A stretch of DNA of 64,000 bases from a virus: IMG/VR virus record IMGVR_UViG_3300032242_000965, positions 1-64,000 of that record; one strand, written 5' to 3'. Shown one piece after another: positions 51,109-63,290 of the stretch. The notes under the pieces were generated by a model. It saw nothing but the letters and a program-made list of their open reading frames with translations, searched no databases and was not told where the DNA came from. A program made the position numbers and the translations under genes. Each line of letters begins with the position of its first letter. Position 1 is the stretch's first letter.

Positions 51109-52056
51109 TTATATCCTTCTTTTATTAAGAACTACTTCAGGAGCACAATGACAACCTAGTTGTCTACATATTACAGGTTCAATTACTGGGTTAAAAACTT
51201 CAATGAAGTTCTTATCGTGTATTGAATAGTAATCTCTTTTACCAAATAAGAATTGCCCACATGTTCCTGTAAGACAACCATTGAAACTTATAAAAAGGTA
51301 ATTAACACCTAATGTACAACTCCATCCTACAAAGTTATTTAATGAATGCATGATAGGATAGTTTTCGTTTTCGGGTTTTACTATACTACCATTATCAAAT
51401 AACAATGAGATATGATTTGTTACACTATTGGTTATACCCTTTTTGTGATTCAATACATATTCAGATTGTGACGTAGTATACTCTATTTCTCCATTAATGT
51501 AAACTGGTTTGGAACTAAGAGAAAAATCAACACCCGATGATTTCAATTCGTCAACTATACTAACACACTTATCCCAATGTGTGTGATCCATTAATACATT
51601 CACACCAAATGTAACATTCTTATCAATTAGTATTTTAGTTAACTCAATAATATGGGAAACATCCACTTGTTCATGGTGTACGCTAACACTAACATTATTA
51701 AACAAATGCCCATACTCTTTCCACCAACGTAATGTGCGTGATCCATTAGTCATTATCTTTATTTCACAACCTGTATGTTGAATTACATATTCTAAAAATT
51801 CTTCAATGTCAGGCCATAATGTAGGTTCTCCGCCACCTAATACTAACTTAATATGTTCTATATTTTGATTGTTGCGATAATAGTTAATCAAATGAACCAT
51901 GTTCTTTTTTACTATATCAACATCAGGCCAAGGCATGACACCAGTATTACATCCTGGAAAACAGTACCAGCATTTGTAATTACATATATCACTAGGTGTA
52001 TAACTAATCTCTAATGAGTTAGTTGCCTTAGTGTTTTTAATTTCTATAAGTTTCAT
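51109..52056 (-). CDS. Radical SAM enzyme with SPASM-like C-terminus
   Basis: Protein of 315 aa. Radical SAM motif CNYKCWYCF (C-x3-C-x2-C) near residue 27, glycine motif GGGEPTLWP near 75, and a cysteine-rich C-terminus (TGTCGQFLFG, then CRQLGCHCAPE), a SPASM/twitch-type auxiliary cluster site. Chemistry unknown; peptide or glycan modification is typical. The iscU/iscA pair could support its clusters. The ATG follows a terminator by 4 nt, so expression depends on read-through from the barrel gene. Confidence 0.85.
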   Translation of the reverse strand: MKLIEIKNTKATNSLEISYTPSDICNYKCWYCFPGCNTGVMPWPDVDIVKKNMVHLINYYRNNQNIEHIKLVLGGGEPTLWPDIEEFLEYVIQHTGCEIKIMTNGSRTLRWWKEYGHLFNNVSVSVHHEQVDVSHIIELTKILIDKNVTFGVNVLMDHTHWDKCVSIVDELKSSGVDFSLSSKPVYINGEIEYTTSQSEYVLNHKKGITNSVTNHISLLFDNGSIVKPENENYPIMHSLNNFVGWSCTLGVNYLFISFNGCLTGTCGQFLFGKRDYYSIHDKNFIEVFNPVIEPVICRQLGCHCAPEVVLNKRRI

Positions 52057-52060
52057 AAGG

Positions 52061-52084
52061 AAAAAGGCTCCGAAGAGCCTTTTA
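52061..52084 (-). terminator. Rho-independent terminator after the outer-membrane barrel
   Basis: Minus strand AAAAGGCTC / GAGCCTTTT with TTCG loop, then TTTTTCC, directly before the radical SAM start. Confidence 0.9.
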
Positions 52085-52101
52085 TGAAAGATTTCTAAAT
52101 T

Positions 52102-52647
52102 TTAGAAACCACGTGTATATGCTACTGCAACAACTTTTTGATTATTGTCACCGTTAACACGGTCATACTTCAATGCAACTGTATCTTCTTTGCTTAATGC
52201 ATAAGCCAAAGAATAACGTGCTGTATGTGTTTGGTCATTGTTTTGTGTGCTATCAAAAGCAGAACGGAAACGATATCCAACTTTAGCAGTTAAACCAGCA
52301 ACACCCGGAACTGCTACTGCAATACCTGGCTCAACTGAGTAGTATGTAAAGTCTGTAGTATTAGTATACTTTTGACCAACTGCAGCACGTGCATATAAAC
52401 CAACTGGGCCATTAACTGTAGCACCTGCTTCTAAGCGTGTGCTTAGTGCGTTAGTACCTTCAGTTTGTGCATTAGAGAAAGCCAAGTCACCAGCAAAGCC
52501 ACTGAACTCTTTCTTTACGCCCAAAACATATTGTTGTTGTGCGGCTGCACCTGCGTTGTTGATATGTTGACCTTCAACTGTGAAACTATCTGCGGCCATA
52601 GCGCCAAATGCAGCTAAAACCAATGTTGCGATTGCAATTTTCTTCAT
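52102..52647 (-). CDS. Outer-membrane beta-barrel protein
   Basis: Protein of 181 aa. Signal peptide MKKIAIATLVLAAFGAMAA is followed by alternating beta strands (TVEGQHINNAG, GLYARAAVGQ, GLTAKVGYRFRSA, VAVAYTRGF) and a terminal Phe, the BAM recognition signal. This small barrel of betaproteobacterial look would be inserted in the host outer membrane. Possible functions: block superinfection by changing receptors, or uptake. SD AAAGGAAATAA precedes it, with a 10-bp leader hairpin (TATGTTTT / AAAACATA). Confidence 0.8.
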   Translation of the reverse strand: MKKIAIATLVLAAFGAMAADSFTVEGQHINNAGAAAQQQYVLGVKKEFSGFAGDLAFSNAQTEGTNALSTRLEAGATVNGPVGLYARAAVGQKYTNTTDFTYYSVEPGIAVAVPGVAGLTAKVGYRFRSAFDSTQNNDQTHTARYSLAYALSKEDTVALKYDRVNGDNNQKVVAVAYTRGF

Positions 52648-52691
52648 ATTTTATTTCCTTTTAAATTATGTTTTTTTAAAACATAGCCTAA

Positions 52692-52699
52692 TATTTAGC
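52692..52699 (-). promoter_or_regulatory. Late promoter variant GCTAAATA
   Basis: Same CGCTAAATAT context as the plus-strand nuclease gene; leader about 40 nt with hairpin and SD. Confidence 0.45.
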
Positions 52700-52720
52700 G
52701 CAAAAAGATTGCGTAATATA

Positions 52721-53005
52721 TTAAGTGTTATCTGGGGGTAACCCATTACTATGTCTGTCACGTACTTCATCCAAATCTTGGAACATTCTTTGCTCTTGTG
52801 TGGTTAATTCCTTGAATGTTTTTCTAGGATTACCACATAAAGCGCATTCTGGATTACCGCAGTCCATAGCGTGGTGTTTAGCAAACTTATGAGGTTCTTT
52901 AACGTCCATTCCATGTTCTTTAGCAATCTTAGTTTGCTTTTTAATAGCGTTTTCATCTTGGTGTAAACGCTTAGAGTGTTTGAATTTGTCTTGTTCGGTG
53001 CTCAT
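52721..53005 (-). CDS. Hypothetical protein with Cys4 zinc motif
   Basis: Protein of 94 aa from 53005 (MSTEQDKFK); an earlier GTG at 53020 lies in the promoter. Lys/His-rich N-half; motif DCGNPECALCGNPRK near residue 55 has three Cys spaced like a zinc knuckle, as in small phage and host proteins. Leaderless early promoter. Confidence 0.65.
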   Translation of the reverse strand: MSTEQDKFKHSKRLHQDENAIKKQTKIAKEHGMDVKEPHKFAKHHAMDCGNPECALCGNPRKTFKELTTQEQRMFQDLDEVRDRHSNGLPPDNT

Positions 53006-53011
53006 AGTATA

Positions 53012-53040
53012 ATAATACACTAAACTATGTTGCTTGTCTA
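53012..53040 (-). promoter_or_regulatory. Early promoter, predicted leaderless
   Basis: TAGACA (53035-53040), 17 bases, TATTAT (53012-53017), six bases, ATG at 53005. Confidence 0.65.
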
Positions 53041-53735
53041 GCCTTTGCTAGCCCAAATACACTAAATATGGTCAACCACATATAACCTATATCGAATTCA
53101 TACCACTTCTTAGAGAGACGGGTACTCGCTGGGTCCAAATGGTGGTTGTTGTGCAATTCTTCACCACCAATAATAATACCCCAAGGACTAATATTACGAC
53201 TACAATCTTTAGTTTCGCCATTTCTATATCCTATAAAATGTCCAATGCCGTTTATAACTCCGGCTGCCCAAAAGGGTATCCATATCATTTGTATACCCCA
53301 TATCAATATTCCCCAATATCCAAATACTAACGTATTGAACACAAAGAGAATGCCAATGCCAAGTCTGGAGTGAGGAGTGTATATGTTGTGCTCCATCCAA
53401 TCAGAAGGAGTACCAACACCGTATGTATCAACCATGACTTTATCTTTTGATGCTTCATTATATAAAAATGCTCCTTTAAAGAAAACTCTTTTTATCCCAT
53501 ACACATGTGGGCTATGGGGGTCACCTTCTACGTCACTGTATCTATGATGCTTGCGGTGTATTGCTACCCATTGCTTTGTTACCATGCCGGTAGTAAGCCA
53601 CAACCAGAAACGCATAAAGTGACTTAATATAGGGTGAAAGATTATTCCTTTGTGTGCCTGGCCTCTATGTAAGAATAGAGTGACACAAATGATAGTAATA
53701 TGTGTTACTATCAATGTATAGATTAGATATGTCAT
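53025..53735 (-). CDS. Acyl-CoA/lipid fatty-acid desaturase
   Basis: Protein of 236 aa. Three histidine boxes: HRGQAH (residues 23-28), HRKHHRYSD near 60 and HNNHHLD near 197, with hydrophobic segments between, the stearoyl-CoA/delta-9 desaturase pattern. It adds a double bond to acyl chains in the inner membrane using oxygen and electrons. It sits in a region of lipid and redox genes. A late-motif variant ACTAAATA ends four bases before the ATG and lies inside an 8-bp inverted repeat. Confidence 0.9.
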   Translation of the reverse strand: MTYLIYTLIVTHITIICVTLFLHRGQAHKGIIFHPILSHFMRFWLWLTTGMVTKQWVAIHRKHHRYSDVEGDPHSPHVYGIKRVFFKGAFLYNEASKDKVMVDTYGVGTPSDWMEHNIYTPHSRLGIGILFVFNTLVFGYWGILIWGIQMIWIPFWAAGVINGIGHFIGYRNGETKDCSRNISPWGIIIGGEELHNNHHLDPASTRLSKKWYEFDIGYMWLTIFSVFGLAKARQAT

Positions 53736-53928: not shown

Positions 53929-53985
53929 AAGAACTCTCCTATACATATATAACGCGGTAGCAATAGTTTCCGTTGACAAAAGGAA

Positions 53986-54001
53986 ACCTGCCGAAGCAGG
54001 T
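53986..54001 (-). terminator. Rho-independent terminator of tmRNA
   Basis: Minus strand ACCTGC TTCG GCAGGT stem-loop followed by TTTCCTTTT. Confidence 0.9.
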
Positions 54002-54228
54002 CCTGAGTTTCTGTTACGAGGTATTTCTTACCCTAGGATGCTTTTATCAAGCAGCCAATGCGAACTGTGAGTCGTTTGCTTTTACTTTTTTTGCTTCTTC
54101 GGTCGGGTCTAACGTCTTTCTATGCTATGGGCATAGCGACTATTACTTTTCCCCCAACCCTAACGGCTTCTACATTGCCGGACTGTCCATTTCATTACTC
54201 TTGACCCTGTCGAATCTAGGTCAGGCCC
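54002..54228 (-). ncRNA. ssrA: tmRNA coding piece (ssrA), permuted gene
   Basis: The 5' end is GGGCCUGA at 54228, which pairs with the CAGGUCC of the acceptor piece (7 bp, one G-U). The D-arm-like AUUCGACAGGG follows. The tag frame (54094 down to 54050, stop TGATAA at 54044-54049) reads AKKVKANDSQFALAA; the ANDxxxALAA end is the standard proteolysis tag. The resume codon upstream of the Lys-rich part is not certain. The 3' end is only bounded by the terminator. tmRNA rescues stalled ribosomes and marks the nascent chain for proteolysis. Confidence 0.9.
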
Positions 54229-54336
54229 ATCAAAAACATACTATGGTCTATCCGCACTTATAGGTTTCCCTAGAGTAATCCGGTGTACCAGCCCTGATCC
54301 CAACCTTTCGATTTTGTAGAGATTTAAGTATGTTTA
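54229..54336 (-). other. Intervening segment of the permuted tmRNA
   Basis: 108 nt between the two pieces, expected to be removed from the precursor as in bacterial two-piece tmRNAs. It contains no frame of note. Confidence 0.75.
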
Positions 54337-54400
54337 TGGTGGACCTGGCGGGATTCGCACCCGCGTCCAGAATCCTTTTCAATTCACTTCATACAGTCTT
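54337..54400 (-). ncRNA. ssrA: tmRNA acceptor piece, permuted gene
   Basis: Ends in CCACCA at 54337 with a T-arm GCGGG UGCGAAU CCCGC and acceptor strand CAGGUCC. Its GACUGU (54393-54398) pairs with ACAGUC of the coding piece (54181-54186), giving a P2 helix and showing both pieces belong together. The piece lies upstream of the coding piece in the transcript, so the gene is circularly permuted. The exact 5' end is not known. Confidence 0.9.
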
Positions 54401-54409
54401 AACTTGTAT

Positions 54410-55681
54410 TTAATCACAACTAAACAATTCTGTAAACATATTTTGGACATATTGACTGTTGTTCTTTCTAAAGACCCAAACAGGTTCTATAAATACACCG
54501 TTCTTACTATTGTCTACAATATTGTGAGGTCTTACTTGCAATCTCATTCCAATCTTACCCAAATAGTGTGCATTTGGGTATGTCAAAATATCGTCAACCA
54601 TATCATCGCATAAGTTCAATCGTGTACCTTTTGCGATTCTAGGTTCAATGATATTAATCATCATATATGCATCATCACGTAATGTATCCCAAATCATGCG
54701 ATTCACTTTGAAAAAGAAGTCATTTTTCCAACTATCAAATGAGGGATATCTACTATAACTCTGTGTCTCACTATTGTTACTTGCATAGCGTTCTGTTTCA
54801 TAGTACGGAGGACTAGTAAAGTAAAAATCAAATTCATTATGATGCTTACTCCAATCTACATCTTCACTAGGTAGATTATATATTGTTACTGATTTACTAC
54901 CAACACAAGTAAAGTAATTATCATATTCTGTTAGTATAGGAGCATGTCCTAACAATCGTTCATACTCAATGCATTGTTGTTTATAAGTATTATAAACTTC
55001 TGGATTAGGATCACATCCTACGTATTTCTCTGTACATCTTGTACCATAGAATCCTGCAAGTCTATCTCCCCAACCACAACTAGTATCTAGTACGTTGACT
55101 GCATCATGTTTTTCATACAATGCTTTTGCAACACTAGGTTTGAATTGTGTTGCAGTATATGTACCAATTCTAAATCCTTCACGGAACATACTATCGTTAA
55201 TATCTCTATTAGCAATGACACCTAATCTCCAGAACTGCCAATTCATCTTTTTTAGTTGATCCATACTATGCCAAATATCCCAGGGACTAGATACAAGATT
55301 ACTACCACACTTCATACGATTTTCTTGTTGAAAGTAATTGCTAACACTATTATAAACGTGTGACTTATCTATAACACCTAATGGGTTATCTTCATACTTA
55401 TATTTGTAATCAACTTTTTCTAATACAACATCAAAGTCTTTATATTCACCCATCATTGATGTATTACGAAACTGTAAAAACAATTCGTTAAGTTCACTTT
55501 TTTCAATGATTCTACTTGGGAAAGGTATGTTGTTACTAGTGATATATTCTGCTAGTGTGTCTCTGATATCTTCTTTGGAATATAGTTGTATAAATTCTTT
55601 CCAATCAACATTACTAATATTAGGTATTCCCCTACTATCGACATGAGTTTGGATATAAGTTAATACGGATTGGTTGAGCAT
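54410..55681 (-). CDS. DNA methyltransferase (N4-C or N6-A type)
   Basis: Protein of 423 aa. SAM motif I DTSCGWGDRLAGF is near residue 200, and catalytic motif IV YFTSPPYYE is near 285; the S/T-P-P-Y form is typical for N4-cytosine methylases but N6-adenine types share it. No restriction partner is next to it. It may protect phage DNA from host restriction. The gene has a predicted leaderless early promoter; its stop abuts the tmRNA. Confidence 0.8.
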   Translation of the reverse strand: MLNQSVLTYIQTHVDSRGIPNISNVDWKEFIQLYSKEDIRDTLAEYITSNNIPFPSRIIEKSELNELFLQFRNTSMMGEYKDFDVVLEKVDYKYKYEDNPLGVIDKSHVYNSVSNYFQQENRMKCGSNLVSSPWDIWHSMDQLKKMNWQFWRLGVIANRDINDSMFREGFRIGTYTATQFKPSVAKALYEKHDAVNVLDTSCGWGDRLAGFYGTRCTEKYVGCDPNPEVYNTYKQQCIEYERLLGHAPILTEYDNYFTCVGSKSVTIYNLPSEDVDWSKHHNEFDFYFTSPPYYETERYASNNSETQSYSRYPSFDSWKNDFFFKVNRMIWDTLRDDAYMMINIIEPRIAKGTRLNLCDDMVDDILTYPNAHYLGKIGMRLQVRPHNIVDNSKNGVFIEPVWVFRKNNSQYVQNMFTELFSCD

Positions 55682-56403: not shown

Positions 56404-57519
56404 TTAAAAAGTAATAGTTTGTGAAGAATCGGTTATTGCATGGAACCATCTTTTACTAGCACCGCTTCCACTACTAGTAACTGTGCCACCAGTTAATGCT
56501 CGTGCAGACCATACATATGAGATAATAACTATACCTTGATATCCAGAAGTAGTATCTAGTCCACCATTTTTACTTGAACCGCCACCGCCACCTGAACCAT
56601 AATTTGTAGCATTTTGTCCCGGGCCATTACCGCCACCGCCAGAGCCGCCGGTGCCGCTATATGAACCTCCTCCGCCACCTGCGTAGGTTACACCATCTGT
56701 CCAAGTTAGTCCTGGTCCACCGTTATATCCTGAATTAGGTCCGCCTGCGCCACCACCTCCACCAATGCCTCCACCGCCACCATCATTTCCATATGCAGGT
56801 TGATTGCCAAAATTTCCAGATGTAGGTTTTGGTTGTGTTGAATAGCCGCCGCGTGGGCCACCTGATCCTCTATGACCTGAACTGCCGCCACCAGAGCCTC
56901 CATCACCACCAGCCATATCGTCTGAGCCTCCACCTAAGCCGCCGCCTATTGCAGTATAACCAAATGCAACAGTACTTCCGCCGTTACCCCCGACACCTCC
57001 GGATCCTATAGTAAATGAATATGATCCTCTAGGAAGATTAAAATTCGCATCAATTAAACCACCGGCGCCACCTCCACCGTTTTCCGCATTATTATCACTA
57101 CCTTGACGAGCATGTCCACCGCCACCACCGCCAAGTATTAATACATTTACAGGAAGTGGATTAGGTACACAAGTATTAGAACCATATGTAATATCTGTAT
57201 AGGTACCGTATGTGCCGTCATTTTTTATAGTATATAAATCAGAACCTGAGCAAGTTGCAGCTGGTTGTCCAGTTACCGAACCATATGGTTCGGGGCCTGC
57301 TTTGCCACGTAGTTGACTCATTGAAATATTAGTTCCAGACGGTGAGGCAGCACCACCATTATTAGCTAGTCTTCTGACTAACGGGTCATTAAATGATATA
57401 GGTAATAGAACATTATTAACTGAGTAATTGGTATCCCCATTACTATTTTGAGCGACATTTAATACTCCTCTAACATTGGAAATTGATAACGCTGCTGGGG
57501 AGGCTGTGGTTGTAGTCAT
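56404..57519 (-). CDS. Glycine-rich tail-fibre adhesin (gp38-like)
   Basis: Protein of 371 aa. N-terminal fibre domain (LSISNVRGVLNVAQ, NISMSQLRGKAGP) and then about 200 residues in which Gly runs alternate with loops (GGGGGGHARQG, GGNGPGQNATNYGSG). Gly-rich adhesins such as T2 gp38 bind host receptors by loops on a Gly II sandwich. Start at 57519 is five bases after a late motif. Confidence 0.7.
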   Translation of the reverse strand: MTTTTASPAALSISNVRGVLNVAQNSNGDTNYSVNNVLLPISFNDPLVRRLANNGGAASPSGTNISMSQLRGKAGPEPYGSVTGQPAATCSGSDLYTIKNDGTYGTYTDITYGSNTCVPNPLPVNVLILGGGGGGHARQGSDNNAENGGGGAGGLIDANFNLPRGSYSFTIGSGGVGGNGGSTVAFGYTAIGGGLGGGSDDMAGGDGGSGGGSSGHRGSGGPRGGYSTQPKPTSGNFGNQPAYGNDGGGGGIGGGGGAGGPNSGYNGGPGLTWTDGVTYAGGGGGSYSGTGGSGGGGNGPGQNATNYGSGGGGGSSKNGGLDTTSGYQGIVIISYVWSARALTGGTVTSSGSGASKRWFHAITDSSQTITF

Positions 57520-59461
57520 TCATATATTTATCACAGTAATGCTGGTACAACCATGCCCAGTCATAAGTTAACATGAGTTTTTCTAATCCCCCGTTAACAG
57601 AATCATAGTATTCCATAGCATTTTTTGCACCTAGAATACTCATATTTCCATAATTACCATTACCCACTGTACTCCAACACTCTAGTCTATGCTTGGATTC
57701 CTCATCATTATAGTATTTCAACTTAATACATTCTCTGAAACTAGTTCTCCAGGTATCATATTCGCTTGAATTATATGTGCTAACACCGCTGTTAATTTTT
57801 ACTACTTCAGTGGGACTATCCATAGTATAATCTAATCTCTTGACTTCGGTATTCAATGTAAGTTTACGATTATTTGCTACTATTGCTTGATGTCCATATT
57901 CTAATCCATTGACTGGGTTGGTGCAAGTAAAGATATAGTGACGACTAGATTTCATTCTATTTGGTTGCCAACTAAAGTCAAAGTCATCATTTACTTTTAA
58001 CTTAGCGTTAACTAAAAAGTACCATGGTGTGGTTGATATATTTGCTGCGGCATGTTGGCTTTTAACTCGACCAACAACTCTATCAATTCTATGTATCTTG
58101 TTAGGTAGATTCTTTGTAATCTCTACCAAATGATTATAGTTGTCTTCAGCACAACTCTCCCCATTACTAAAGAATACAATGTCTAATGGTTCTACTTTAG
58201 TAGGGTATCTATGATAAAAAACTTCATGGTAGTCTGATAGTTTATCATATAACTTATAAACCACATCACTGGGTACTATTGCTTCACATTCATTGAGTAT
58301 ATGTAGATATGGTTTGTTTTCAGTATTCGGTAGTATATTTTTATAATCTAATGTAGGTGTACCTACATAAAAATGTACGTACTTACATGAAAACTGATGA
58401 TTTACTACCTCATCAAATATACTATCTATGCATGGTACTTGATTTATAGATAGTTTAGCAACTATATCAGTCATATATTTTGTACCTACACTATCACGTT
58501 GCCTATAGATAATTGTAGGCATACTCTCAGGAGTAAAATATTCATTACCAAATACATATGTATATGGTTCTTCCGTTTCATCGGGGTGCCAACTATAATC
58601 AAAATCATTTACACATTCTACAACTCTAAACTTTTTTGGCATAGGTAAACGTGTTGCGGTTTGTATATCACAATATTTCTTAACAGTGGCATTACGCATA
58701 CTATATATTGGTCCACCTGTCTTTTGCCATTGTGTGCCGAACTCATACATATAAGGTGGTTCAGTATCATCTGGATGCCAACTAAAATCAAAACTATCCA
58801 TGTCAATGCTTTCAGGAATAGTCCATCGTCTTAAACTAGGTAATCGGGTAGCAACTTGAATGTCATTATATTTTATAACTGATGCATCATCAGGTGTATA
58901 TCTTGGTCCACCTGTCTTTTGCCATTGTGTTCCGAACTGATGTATCAGACTAGGCTCATGTGGATGTGGTCTCCAACTATAATCAAAGTCTTCACTAATA
59001 TCATCTGGTATATACCAACGTTCTATTTCAGGCAATAACATTGCCTTGATATCATACATGTATTTCTTTTCTGTTGCACCTTTAACACGATATTGAAATG
59101 AAGGCATGGTATCAACATCATACCATTGATTACCAAATACATAGATAAAGGGTGGCTCGGTATCGTCTGGGTGCCAACTATAGTCAACTGTACAGTTATT
59201 GATTAATGGACGCCAACAACGATTATTAGTATCAGGCAGTCTTCTTGCTATCTGATGGCTTTGATATTTGATACCTTCACTTTCAGGTATAACGAATCTT
59301 GGTCCACCTGTCTTTTGATGTTGTGTTCCAAACTGATGTATATAAGGTCTATCATATGGATCCGGGCGCCAAGTAAAATCAAATTCACTTGTATCTAAAA
59401 AATCAGGGACTTCCCAATATCCTTGCTTGAACAATTCAAGTCTACGACTAACATCTATCAT
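57470..59461 (-). CDS. Repeat protein with glycosyltransferase-like C-terminal region
   Basis: Protein of 663 aa. Five repeats of about 66 aa at residues 25-340, each holding F-D-[FY]-[ST]-W-[HR]-P-[DH]...P-[YF]-[IT]-[YH]-x-F-G; a sixth degenerate copy lies near 495. Residues 345-490 look like a GT-A-like domain (VFFSNGESCAEDNY, STTPWYFLVNAKLKV). The C-terminus (TWRTSFRECIKLKY, WSTVGNGN) is paralogous to the gene at 63284. Likely a sugar transferase with binding repeats, modifying host or phage surface; enzyme activity is inferred. Overlaps carbamoyltransferase by 4 nt. Confidence 0.6.
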   Translation of the reverse strand: MIDVSRRLELFKQGYWEVPDFLDTSEFDFTWRPDPYDRPYIHQFGTQHQKTGGPRFVIPESEGIKYQSHQIARRLPDTNNRCWRPLINNCTVDYSWHPDDTEPPFIYVFGNQWYDVDTMPSFQYRVKGATEKKYMYDIKAMLLPEIERWYIPDDISEDFDYSWRPHPHEPSLIHQFGTQWQKTGGPRYTPDDASVIKYNDIQVATRLPSLRRWTIPESIDMDSFDFSWHPDDTEPPYMYEFGTQWQKTGGPIYSMRNATVKKYCDIQTATRLPMPKKFRVVECVNDFDYSWHPDETEEPYTYVFGNEYFTPESMPTIIYRQRDSVGTKYMTDIVAKLSINQVPCIDSIFDEVVNHQFSCKYVHFYVGTPTLDYKNILPNTENKPYLHILNECEAIVPSDVVYKLYDKLSDYHEVFYHRYPTKVEPLDIVFFSNGESCAEDNYNHLVEITKNLPNKIHRIDRVVGRVKSQHAAANISTTPWYFLVNAKLKVNDDFDFSWQPNRMKSSRHYIFTCTNPVNGLEYGHQAIVANNRKLTLNTEVKRLDYTMDSPTEVVKINSGVSTYNSSEYDTWRTSFRECIKLKYYNDEESKHRLECWSTVGNGNYGNMSILGAKNAMEYYDSVNGGLEKLMLTYDWAWLYQHYCDKYMNDYNHSLPSSVINFQC
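57525..57532 (-). promoter_or_regulatory. Late promoter GATAAATA, predicted leaderless
   Basis: Within the 3' end of the 663-aa gene, five bases before the ATG at 57519. Confidence 0.6.
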
Positions 59462-60936
59462 GTGTGTACTTTAATACCATACATCTTTTCAAAACGTCTT
59501 GCGTCACCTTTGTCGTTGACCATAGGCTCACCACGTATGTTTAAACTTGTATTAAGTAACATAGGACATTCTGTCATTACATACCATTTTTCAAGGAGTT
59601 CTCGTATTCCGCTTCCATCATTAGGGACAGTTTGTACACGACTAGTCCCGTCAACATGAACGATAGCAGGAAATAAGTCAGGATTCCTACAAGTAGCGAC
59701 TGATTGCATATACCTACTGTTATTGAAACCACGAGGCATAACAAAATACTGATTAGCATACTCTTCCAGAATAACTGGCGCAAAGGGTCTGAACTTTTGT
59801 CTGCGTTTAATTTCATTTACTTTCTCCTTAATTTCATTACCTCTAGGGTCTGCTAATAGACTACGATTACCTAATGCTCTAGGACCAAACTCTGCTCTAC
59901 CATTAGCAACACCTACTATGTCGCCTCTAAGCAAACTATCAAGTAATTTATTAACAGGATATTTACCTTTTATATCATATCCTAGAAATGCATCTTTCCA
60001 ATCAAGTTTATAATTGAAGCCTAAGGCAGCAGCACCTAAACTACTACCGGCATCCCCTGGATTAGGCATAATCCAAATATTATCAAAATGTTTACTTAGA
60101 TATTGGTTTGCTACACAATTTAATGCAACACCGCCACCATATACTAAATTTCTACTTTCACCGATTATTCTAGCACGTTGCATTACATTATGAATCAATT
60201 TTTCAACTATATATTGACTACTTGTTGCAATATCAATATTGTCTGCACCTTCTAAAAAATCATCAGACACACCTATGTGTAGATTATGTTTGAATTCTAT
60301 GTCTGTACTAGAAATCAATAATTGGTCATACATATCTATGTATTCAGACATGTCTCCATATGCAGCCATGCCCATTAGAATATATTCTTCTTCATTGGGT
60401 TTTAGTCCCACACGCTTAGTCATTGCACTATAGAATAGTCCTATACTGTTTGGATATCGTTGACTCCATAACTTAGTGTAATTAGGGCCTTTATTAGTAT
60501 AACGTGCATCCCAAATACTAATAGTATCGAACTCACCTATAGCATCAATAATAACTACAGTAGCATCAACAAAACTACTAGTTTGAAATCCTGCTGCCGC
60601 ATGTGTCAAATGATGTCCATGTGTATGTATTTTTCTATTCTCAAACATATTGTGAATATCATTACCTATAATATTCTTGGCAAATAATGTATTGAATCTA
60701 GGTTTCTGTCCTGCACGTAGTTGACGTAGGTATTTTAGTGTTGGGTTTTCATAGTAATGAAGTTCATAGTCATCACTAATATATGACAATGCATCCTCTA
60801 CTAATCGTGGGTGTAGATTCTTATCATTTTTAATCTTGCTGTATCGTTCACTATGCCCGGCAAAAACTATGTTGCCACCACTGATAACACTTATACTAGC
60901 ATCGTGAAAGCCTGCGCTAATTCCTATGTAATCCAT
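59458..60936 (-). CDS. O-carbamoyltransferase (NodU/CmcH/TobZ family)
   Basis: Protein of 492 aa. Kae1-like ATPase N-domain: GISAGFHDASISVI, HHLTHAAAGF (His pair for metal), VVIDAIGEFDTISIW and LVYGGGVALNCVANQ; the C-terminal carbamoyl-transfer domain includes GRAEFGPRALGNRSLLADPR. These enzymes make carbamoyl-adenylate from carbamoyl-phosphate and ATP and transfer the group to a hydroxyl of sugar or antibiotic. Acceptor here unknown; glycan or modified DNA base are both possible. Coupled to the glycosyltransferase-like gene. Confidence 0.92.
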   Translation of the reverse strand: MDYIGISAGFHDASISVISGGNIVFAGHSERYSKIKNDKNLHPRLVEDALSYISDDYELHYYENPTLKYLRQLRAGQKPRFNTLFAKNIIGNDIHNMFENRKIHTHGHHLTHAAAGFQTSSFVDATVVIIDAIGEFDTISIWDARYTNKGPNYTKLWSQRYPNSIGLFYSAMTKRVGLKPNEEEYILMGMAAYGDMSEYIDMYDQLLISSTDIEFKHNLHIGVSDDFLEGADNIDIATSSQYIVEKLIHNVMQRARIIGESRNLVYGGGVALNCVANQYLSKHFDNIWIMPNPGDAGSSLGAAALGFNYKLDWKDAFLGYDIKGKYPVNKLLDSLLRGDIVGVANGRAEFGPRALGNRSLLADPRGNEIKEKVNEIKRRQKFRPFAPVILEEYANQYFVMPRGFNNSRYMQSVATCRNPDLFPAIVHVDGTSRVQTVPNDGSGIRELLEKWYVMTECPMLLNTSLNIRGEPMVNDKGDARRFEKMYGIKVHT

Positions 60937-61039: not shown

Positions 61040-61869
61040 TTTATTACCTCAAAAAATTTAGTCACTACCGAGTCTTGGTGTAGATTTCCCGGATGCGATA
61101 TTATACCGTTTTTACCGTTCTTATGTTTATTCATATCTCTTGCACGATTCATATGTATAGATTCCGGATATTCAAAATTTTCATAGTACAGTGGGATATC
61201 TGCATAAACTGTAGGATATCTGTCAGTAAATTTACTTTTTTCCATATCCTGACAGGAACTCATTTCAAATAACGGAATATTTGCCAAATCACATATTAGC
61301 TTAATAGTTTTTCGAATGTTATCAAATCTATTGAAAACTTGATGATCCATAACAATAAAATCTTCATATGTTCTTTTCCAATGATTGTTTGTTATAAGGT
61401 TTGGTAACAAAAAACTTACACAGGTATCATCTAACCAGTAGAAATTACGATAGACTGGAGGCCAGTTTATAAAAACTACTTTTGGTTTCTTAGGTGCATT
61501 AGTCATTAAATTTATAAAATTATAATATACAAAATCAACACTACTACCACTTATACTTGCATTAACATAGTCAACATTAGCCTGTTGTGCTATTTTATAA
61601 AAAAATGTATCTGTTACATGTAACCCTATCCCAACTGTAAAACTACAACCGAAAAAAGCATAGTAGTTATCATAGTCAACATCTTCTAACTCTTTCATTC
61701 TATAACCCAATTTGTTAAACTTATATGTTATTGGGTTATTGTAGTAATACCAATCAGATCCATATAACTTCATATTACGATTATATAATTCTTCTGTGTC
61801 AGTCAACGCAAAGGGAATTTCAATCGAAATTAAGTCTATATGAGGTGATTTTAACAAAATATCCATCAC
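61036..61869 (-). CDS. SGNH/GDSL hydrolase-like protein
   Basis: Protein of 277 aa. Block I FFGCSFTVGIGL (catalytic Ser), block II ASISGSSVDFVYYN (Gly), block III with VVFINWPP (N), and C-terminal HPGNLHQDS with His, the layout of SGNH esterases. It could de-acetylate or acetylate glycans. It overlaps the radical SAM gene by 4 nt. Confidence 0.7.
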   Translation of the reverse strand: MMDILLKSPHIDLISIEIPFALTDTEELYNRNMKLYGSDWYYYNNPITYKFNKLGYRMKELEDVDYDNYYAFFGCSFTVGIGLHVTDTFFYKIAQQANVDYVNASISGSSVDFVYYNFINLMTNAPKKPKVVFINWPPVYRNFYWLDDTCVSFLLPNLITNNHWKRTYEDFIVMDHQVFNRFDNIRKTIKLICDLANIPLFEMSSCQDMEKSKFTDRYPTVYADIPLYYENFEYPESIHMNRARDMNKHKNGKNGIISHPGNLHQDSVVTKFFEVIK

Positions 61870-63290
61870 AACCCTTTGAACTCATTATACATAGGAACTA
61901 ATTCAGGATATGTCTCAGTAAAGTTTGTTCCCCTGCGTCTATCATGTTCATCTACAAATGTAACAAAATCTTTACGTTTTGTATTAATGTTAACACTAGG
62001 AGAATTCAATTCTGTTTGTATAATATTATAAATTCTACGCAATTTGTAAATCTCATGTTCATAGAATCCTTTGTACTCTTCTCCGGGTACATTAGTTTCT
62101 TGATTATCTTCCATGAACTTAATTTGTTCTTCTACATAATGTAATAACGATTCTGGTATAATGTAACTTGCTTGATGTTCAGGGTGACGTAGATAAGGCA
62201 TATCTAGCACAATAGGAGTTCTATGATTTTGATATGCAACATGTCTATACTTCAATCTTAGTTGTAGCACATCATTTAGAAATTTAGTATAGCTAGGAAT
62301 GCTTAGTATATTATATGTACTCATTAAACTAATAGCAGCGCCGGGTACTTCATTAATCATGCGTTCAATGTTATGTAGCCATTGATTATAGTTCATTCCA
62401 TAACGTATATACTCAGCCTGTGCTCCATGTGCCTCTGCAGAGGTAAAAATTTGTAAATGCATTACTTTCTTACCCTCTTGTATAATCTTTAGTTTTTCAA
62501 TAAACTTATCATACAGTTCATCCGGCACATTCATATTAGTGTTTACACTAAATGTTAAATTGGGGTTAGGATTCTCAATGATATAGTCAAGTACTTTGAA
62601 TGTGTTTTTACTTAATAAAGGTTCTCCACCTGTAATACGAAACTGTTTTAATTCGTTATACATAGTAGGCCACCAACGCCAAAACGCTTCTACATAAGGA
62701 TTATCTTGATTGTTGGGTATAGGCATTTGTTGATTCTGTTTGAACCAATCTAAGTTATTAAATTTAGTTGTAGTAGGATAAGCGCCATATCGTTCAATTT
62801 CTTCCATCCATTGACTACTGATATTAGGACTACAGTAACTACATTTAAAGTTACACACACTACTGAAACTAACTTCTACATAACTAGGATCAACATTATC
62901 ATCCCAAGGCTTACTAGCAATGTCTTGTATATGACCATGTGCCCAAGTAGTGTCAGCACTTTTATAAGTTCTATCACTATATCTATTACCACTATCTTCT
63001 GCTCTCCAACAATAGTCACATTCGCTAGGACGCACGCCTTCAAGCATTAGTTTACGTTGGCTCTTTTTGAATTCTGTATTATGTAGTGCGGTTGGATTCT
63101 TGCGTAGTTCTTCTAATGGAACTACGTGTGTACCTGGGTGATGACAACTATGTGTATGTCCGTTTTGTAAGTGTAGTGTAACTTGCTTCCATTTAGCTAC
63201 ACAAAAACTAGAACTTACCTTGTTTAACTCAACATAAGTATTTTCTAAATGTTCTGCGTATTCTTCTTCTTTTGTTTTTTTCATTACCAA
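61866..63290 (-). CDS. Twitch-domain radical SAM protein
   Basis: Protein of 474 aa. Radical SAM site SFSSVCNFKCSYC near residue 145, GGEPLL motif RITGGEPLLSKN near 222; N-terminal block with Cys/His clusters (FCVAKWKQ, THSCHHPG, SECDYCWRAE) fits an extra Fe-S cluster or metal site. This family of 'twitch' radical SAM proteins is common in marine phages and their hosts, function unknown. It overlaps the upstream gene by 7 nt. Confidence 0.85.
   Translation of the reverse strand: MVMKKTKEEEYAEHLENTYVELNKVSSSFCVAKWKQVTLHLQNGHTHSCHHPGTHVVPLEELRKNPTALHNTEFKKSQRKLMLEGVRPSECDYCWRAEDSGNRYSDRTYKSADTTWAHGHIQDIASKPWDDNVDPSYVEVSFSSVCNFKCSYCSPNISSQWMEEIERYGAYPTTTKFNNLDWFKQNQQMPIPNNQDNPYVEAFWRWWPTMYNELKQFRITGGEPLLSKNTFKVLDYIIENPNPNLTFSVNTNMNVPDELYDKFIEKLKIIQEGKKVMHLQIFTSAEAHGAQAEYIRYGMNYNQWLHNIERMINEVPGAAISLMSTYNILSIPSYTKFLNDVLQLRLKYRHVAYQNHRTPIVLDMPYLRHPEHQASYIIPESLLHYVEEQIKFMEDNQETNVPGEEYKGFYEHEIYKLRRIYNIIQTELNSPSVNINTKRKDFVTFVDEHDRRRGTNFTETYPELVPMYNEFKGL

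Follow-up and report, generated by a model that had tools for sequence, protein, structure and literature searches.

Structure of the permuted tmRNA locus

The RNA known as tmRNA releases ribosomes that have stalled and marks their products for degradation. We analysed a 64,000-nt window (positions 1 to 64,000 of the virus record IMGVR_UViG_3300032242_000965) and found an intact permuted tmRNA gene on its minus strand at about 53978–54401, reading 5′ to 3′ from 54401 and running from roughly where the acceptor piece starts to where the terminator stops. The original prediction had located a circularly permuted, two-piece tmRNA of a phage at 53986–54410 with no strand given; the locus stands, while its strand and extent are those reported here. 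An Infernal search with tmRNA models, as proposed there, gave two matches over gathering: the merged Rfam model RF04321 (tmRNA_permuted) aligned end to end with positions 54398–54047 (109.2 bits versus a gathering threshold of 47, E = 2.2e-20), and RF01850 (beta_tmRNA) aligned with 54449–53981 (92.9 bits versus 84, E = 8.1e-27) and is the best model for this gene in clan CL00001. ARAGORN independently called a permuted tmRNA at 54029–54429. Covariance-model E-values and the comparative evidence below lie far above chance and confirm that the element is a real permuted tmRNA. Its layout is that of an acceptor piece, an intervening sequence (IVS; 54336–54229) and a coding piece, all on the same strand, from which a two-piece RNA is predicted.

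The acceptor piece (54337–54401, minus strand; 5′ end approximate), which corresponds to the 3′ part of a tRNA, contains the 5′ strand of helix P2 (GACUGU, 54398–54393), a T-arm (stem GCGGG/CCCGC, loop UGCGAAU; 54348–54364) and the 3′ strand of the acceptor stem with an encoded CCA (CAGGUCC followed by ACCA; 54337–54347). The coding piece (54044–54228, minus strand) begins with GGGCCUGA (54228–54221), which supplies the 5′ acceptor strand, and continues through UUCGAC, the 3′ strand of P2, the tag and its stop codons before running on towards the terminator. Together the pieces form a 7-bp acceptor stem (GGGCCUG/CAGGUCC-ACCA) that includes G3·U70, and they are joined by pairing of GACUGU with ACAGUC in P2. 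The predicted order of T-arm, CCACCA and coding-piece 5′ end was thus recovered in the window, as was each of the other predicted elements: the acceptor stem, P2, the tag ANDSQFALAA and the terminator.

The tag frame (54044–54079, minus strand) reads GCA AAC GAC UCA CAG UUC GCA UUG GCU GCU UGA UAA, is common to the relatives, and is preceded by U at −5 and A at −4 relative to the GCA resume codon. It has the features expected of a permuted tmRNA: a resume codon, a hydrophobic degron end with AA, and a stop. The gene ends in an intrinsic terminator (53978–54003, minus strand), recognized from the sequence as the hairpin GGACCUGC UUCG GCAGGUUU followed by a U-tract. A search directly upstream of the tmRNA gene found no clear promoter.

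Between UUCGAC and the tag, the window has 129 nt compared to 64–88 nt in relatives. This region contains an extended helix (GGUUGGG/CCCGACC) enclosing an inner hairpin (GUC-CUAUG..CAUAG-GAC) at 54101–54159 on the minus strand. Its counterpart in the closest relatives (L041, L047 and L058) is about 42 nt shorter, being a helix of the GGUUGGG..CCCGACC type without the extra hairpin. The insert region folds better than its shuffles (z = −2.7). Because the hairpin is private to the window, it is without covariation support. It also causes ARAGORN to report a false tag, AMPIA (54137–54120), which we rejected, as its codons lie inside a hairpin insert that the relatives lack.

Covariation supports the acceptor stem and a precursor helix

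We compared the gene with 77 distinct viral relatives, in which the coding piece was located by sequence motif only and pairing was not required. The 7-bp acceptor stem is fully paired in 75 of the 77, and none of the 77 has lost G3·U70. Paired exchanges occur at position 4:69 (G-C, C-G and U-A) and at position 5:68 (C-G, G-C and A-U). Support for P2 is smaller: its pairing score is 14.6 within a sequence versus 12.3 across sequences, and in the window alone it is moderately significant (3% of shuffles are equally good). A occurs at −4 in 82 of 82 tagged relatives, in a search that allowed A or G at −4 and required U at −5. The LAA end is present in 28 of 45 distinct tags, the window's included.

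The 108-nt IVS (54229–54336, minus strand) is expected to be removed, and the helix formed by its ends covaries across 75 distinct viral sequences. In the window, its ends AAACAUACU (54335–54327) and AGUAUGUUU (54242–54234) pair as a 9-bp helix, and UUGAU directly precedes GGG at the 3′ end of the IVS. In most relatives the helix has 9–12 bp, begins immediately after CCA and is separated from GGG by a short stretch of bases, typically UGAU; it is absent from a few groups (e.g. L006, L031, L045 and L054). The IVS ends of a sequence pair far better with each other than with those of other sequences (scores of 21.1 ± 5.7 within a sequence, 11.4 ± 3.1 across sequences and 11.2 after shuffling; n = 75). 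This covariation is good evidence for selection of the gene as one folded precursor. Neither RF04321 nor RF01850 draws the helix. We do not claim it as new, because complementary sequences in the intervening sequence have been noted for the Hodgkinia tmRNA (PMC6581868), and a plasmid copy from Pandoraea can, by eye, form the helix too.

Several viral permuted tmRNAs (L047, L085, L163, L094/L143, L105/L122, L134 and L003) carry tags with an ending other than AA (ANDDTFLLAANA, ANDSTYALRANA, ANDDFYAQEFRKVA, ANDDYYEPLRLVA, ANDSSYLKVA, ANESTFLKVA and ANDADYSVARYA). Such ends may weaken the ClpXP degron.

A variant T-loop and the question of origin

The window's T-loop (U54-G55-C56-G57-A58-A59-U60) has G in place of the usual U55 and differs from UUCGAUU, which is the beta_tmRNA consensus and not a strict requirement. 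Because of this difference, we call the gene beta-like and do not file it as a betaproteobacterial tmRNA. The loop UGCGAAU is common to the window and about 50 viral contigs. In exact-pattern scans of 2.9 million viral contigs, the window's T-arm GGACGCGGGUGCGAAUCCCGCCA was found in 64 contigs, most of which have a permuted tmRNA according to ARAGORN, and the UUCGAUU version with CCA was found in 93, many of them permuted tmRNAs; these were two separate pattern searches, and their counts are not frequencies. Among 84,980 species genomes of bacteria and archaea, this 23-base T-arm has nine occurrences, which lie in Elusimicrobia, one Nitrospirales genome and one WWE3 genome and always in one-piece tmRNAs. 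The pattern, which misses G55 loops carried on another T-stem, was found in no cyanobacterial genome of that collection and in none from beta-, alpha- or any other proteobacteria. A G55 T-loop, without the normally pseudouridylated U, could weaken folding or binding.

When the T-arm is left out of the tree, the window falls in a set of 7 sequences (support 100/99) within a set of 17 (100/100), all viral; the tree has 126 columns, contains viral sequences only and resolves shallow groups only. To explain G55, this tree requires about six changes. Therefore, G55 does not mark a single clean lineage, and the tree does not establish one origin for it.

Two-piece tmRNAs occur in alphaproteobacteria, some betaproteobacteria and cyanobacteria, as the original prediction stated and as the literature agrees (PMC11915505, PMC9004378). 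Its further suggestion, namely that such a host is the probable source of the phage copy, describes a possible origin and not an established one: the best class model is betaproteobacterial, yet the closest sequences found come exclusively from viruses. The near relative L058 is assigned to the alpha model by clan competition, and the class assignment is therefore shallow. Beta-like permuted tmRNAs are carried by a phage of the betaproteobacterium Alcaligenes and likewise by phages of Stenotrophomonas and Xanthomonas, which are gammaproteobacteria thought to have one-piece tmRNA. Because gammaproteobacterial phages carry them too, the host's class does not follow from the best fit of the beta model.

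Phage context and absence of SmpB from the records searched

The tmRNA gene lies at 54 kb of the 88,100-base record, which also encodes a T4-like large terminase with at most about 51–52% identity to any cultured phage among the matches listed. Upstream on the same strand, a 423-aa CDS (54410–55681, minus strand) resembles DNA methyltransferases according to PHROG and stops some 9 bases short of the acceptor piece. Homologues with 65–77% identity occur in about a dozen or more tmRNA-bearing viral contigs (L006, L018, L026, L031, L032, L045, L054, L056 and others), at distances of up to about 2 kb from the tmRNA. Because this neighbour recurs near the tmRNA in related viral contigs, the gene is, judged by its genomic context, a resident phage gene. 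An SmpB gene was found neither in the window's 88-kb record, which is a fragment, nor in 20 related records, which include two complete phage genomes (Yut2, 161 kb, and X1, 200 kb). We therefore presume that the host's SmpB is the partner of the phage tmRNA.

Auxiliary genes near the tmRNA gene encode two radical-SAM proteins, a NodU/CmcH-type carbamoyltransferase and a fatty-acid desaturase (51109–52056, 61866–63290, 59458–60936 and 53025–53735). A 663-aa tandem-repeat protein (units DFDYSWHPDDTEPPY..; 57470–59461) had no hit in a family search and has multi-copy homologues in the tmRNA-bearing contigs L054 and L058. A 181-aa protein (52102–52647) looks like a signal peptide followed by an outer-membrane beta-barrel, which is unusual for a phage; it has a homologue in L047 (42%). 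A plasmid tblastn of an outer-membrane-like protein gave no match.

Comparison with known systems

Because phage two-piece tmRNAs are already published (PMC9004378), the window's gene belongs to a known kind, and its T-loop variant and insert are details for specialists. Methylophilales phage Melnitz and the pelagimyophages have two-piece tmRNAs, and 53 two-piece structures were counted by ARAGORN among phage genomes (PMC9004378). These phages share with the window a permuted tmRNA gene. However, the tmRNA of Melnitz clusters with those of alphaproteobacteria, and a glutamine riboswitch is linked to it, whereas the window fits the beta model best and has no Rfam riboswitch over gathering. Bacteriophage tmRNAs number 79 unique sequences in a 2025 database (PMC11915505), and tmRNA together with SmpB is known in huge phages (PMC7162821).

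Compared to betaproteobacterial members of RF01850, such as the Pandoraea plasmid copy (L171; 131.6 bits versus 93 bits for the window), the window has the same layout, acceptor stem, P2 and 3′ hairpin, but it has UGCGAAU for UUCGAUU, a longer PK1 region with the private hairpin and a longer IVS. That copy, a beta-type permuted tmRNA, lies on the 633-kb conjugative plasmid pPO70-1 of Pandoraea oxalativorans (51352–53406) and has the ARAGORN tag GKNDAFYYEAA; a second place in the plasmid record also matched the query. The cultured Menderavirus (Stenotrophomonas) phages and Xanthomonas phage X1 likewise have a beta-like permuted tmRNA with the IVS end helix; unlike the window, their T-loop is UUCGAUU and their tags are ANDDSYTVRIAA and ANDADYSVARYA. 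These genes are often unannotated. Permuted tmRNAs without deposited annotation are present in Xanthomonas phage X1 (L003, 1466–1916), Alcaligenes phage QDWS595 (L170, 1141–1517) and Stenotrophomonas phage QDWS359 (L172, 967–1384), and in QDWS359 an antisense 'hypothetical protein' overlies the gene.

Proposed function and alternative explanations

From the gene's anatomy, its pairing and covariation, its phage context and the absence of SmpB from the records searched, we consider it very probable that the locus encodes a functional two-piece tmRNA of betaproteobacterial structural type. The following steps, covering processing, alanylation, tagging and the benefit to the phage, are proposed because they accord with established tmRNA biology. 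The gene would be expressed as a single transcript, probably by read-through from the upstream methyltransferase-like gene, and the hairpin terminator would end it. In the precursor, the acceptor stem and the adjoining IVS end helix would form one long rod, from which the host's tRNA-processing enzymes would excise the 108-nt IVS, RNase P cutting at UGAU|GGG and 3′ processing occurring after CCA. After cleavage, the acceptor and coding pieces would stay joined by pairing in the acceptor stem and P2. The host's alanyl-tRNA synthetase would charge the tmRNA via G3·U70, which is the alanine identity element, and host SmpB would bring the charged tmRNA to stalled ribosomes. ANDSQFALAA would then be added to the nascent chain, directing it to ClpXP-type proteases, and the likely benefit would be that ribosomes and amino acids are kept available during infection.

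Alternatively, the phage RNA could act as a dominant interferer that competes with the host tmRNA for SmpB and alanyl-tRNA synthetase, or that applies a tag of the phage's choosing, instead of carrying out normal rescue. A precedent is the tag-less phage tmRNA of DS6A, which inhibits the endogenous tmRNA in E. coli (PMC11915505), and the non-AA tag endings of some viral relatives (FLLAANA, ALRANA, EFRKVA, LRLVA, ARYA and LKVA) would also fit. The window's own tag, however, is canonical (ALAA), its stops are intact and all features relevant to rescue are conserved, and we regard interference as unlikely here.

We assign a much smaller probability to a non-functional gene, whether a decaying remnant or a host ssrA captured recently, for example at an attachment site. 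The ssrA gene is a frequent integration site of prophages, and several of the viral hits are located at the ends of contigs, but the window's match is internal to its record, all its elements are intact and covarying, its nearest relatives are viral and branch together, and its neighbour is kept in tmRNA-bearing viral contigs; these comparative data already largely refute such a reading. The chance that the contig is bacterial contamination, or was misassembled with a host tmRNA, is slighter still: the record is of metagenomic type and not an isolate, but the flanking genes are of phage type and independent viral contigs share both the gene and its neighbour.

A functional rescue RNA that draws on host factors remains our preferred reading. 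More tentatively, and with rather less than even confidence, the window may belong to a long-lived, virus-specific two-piece lineage unlike any bacterial tmRNA and adapted to host SmpB as it operates during infection; its G55 T-loop would evade pseudouridylation by TruB, and its PK1 would be an expanded one.

The betaproteobacterial-type two-piece tmRNA is a recurrent resident gene of environmental phages rather than a one-off capture. About 77 distinct viral sequences give usable covariation for the precursor helix, and their tag variants form a natural series that would let one ask what phages gain from a ribosome rescue RNA of their own.
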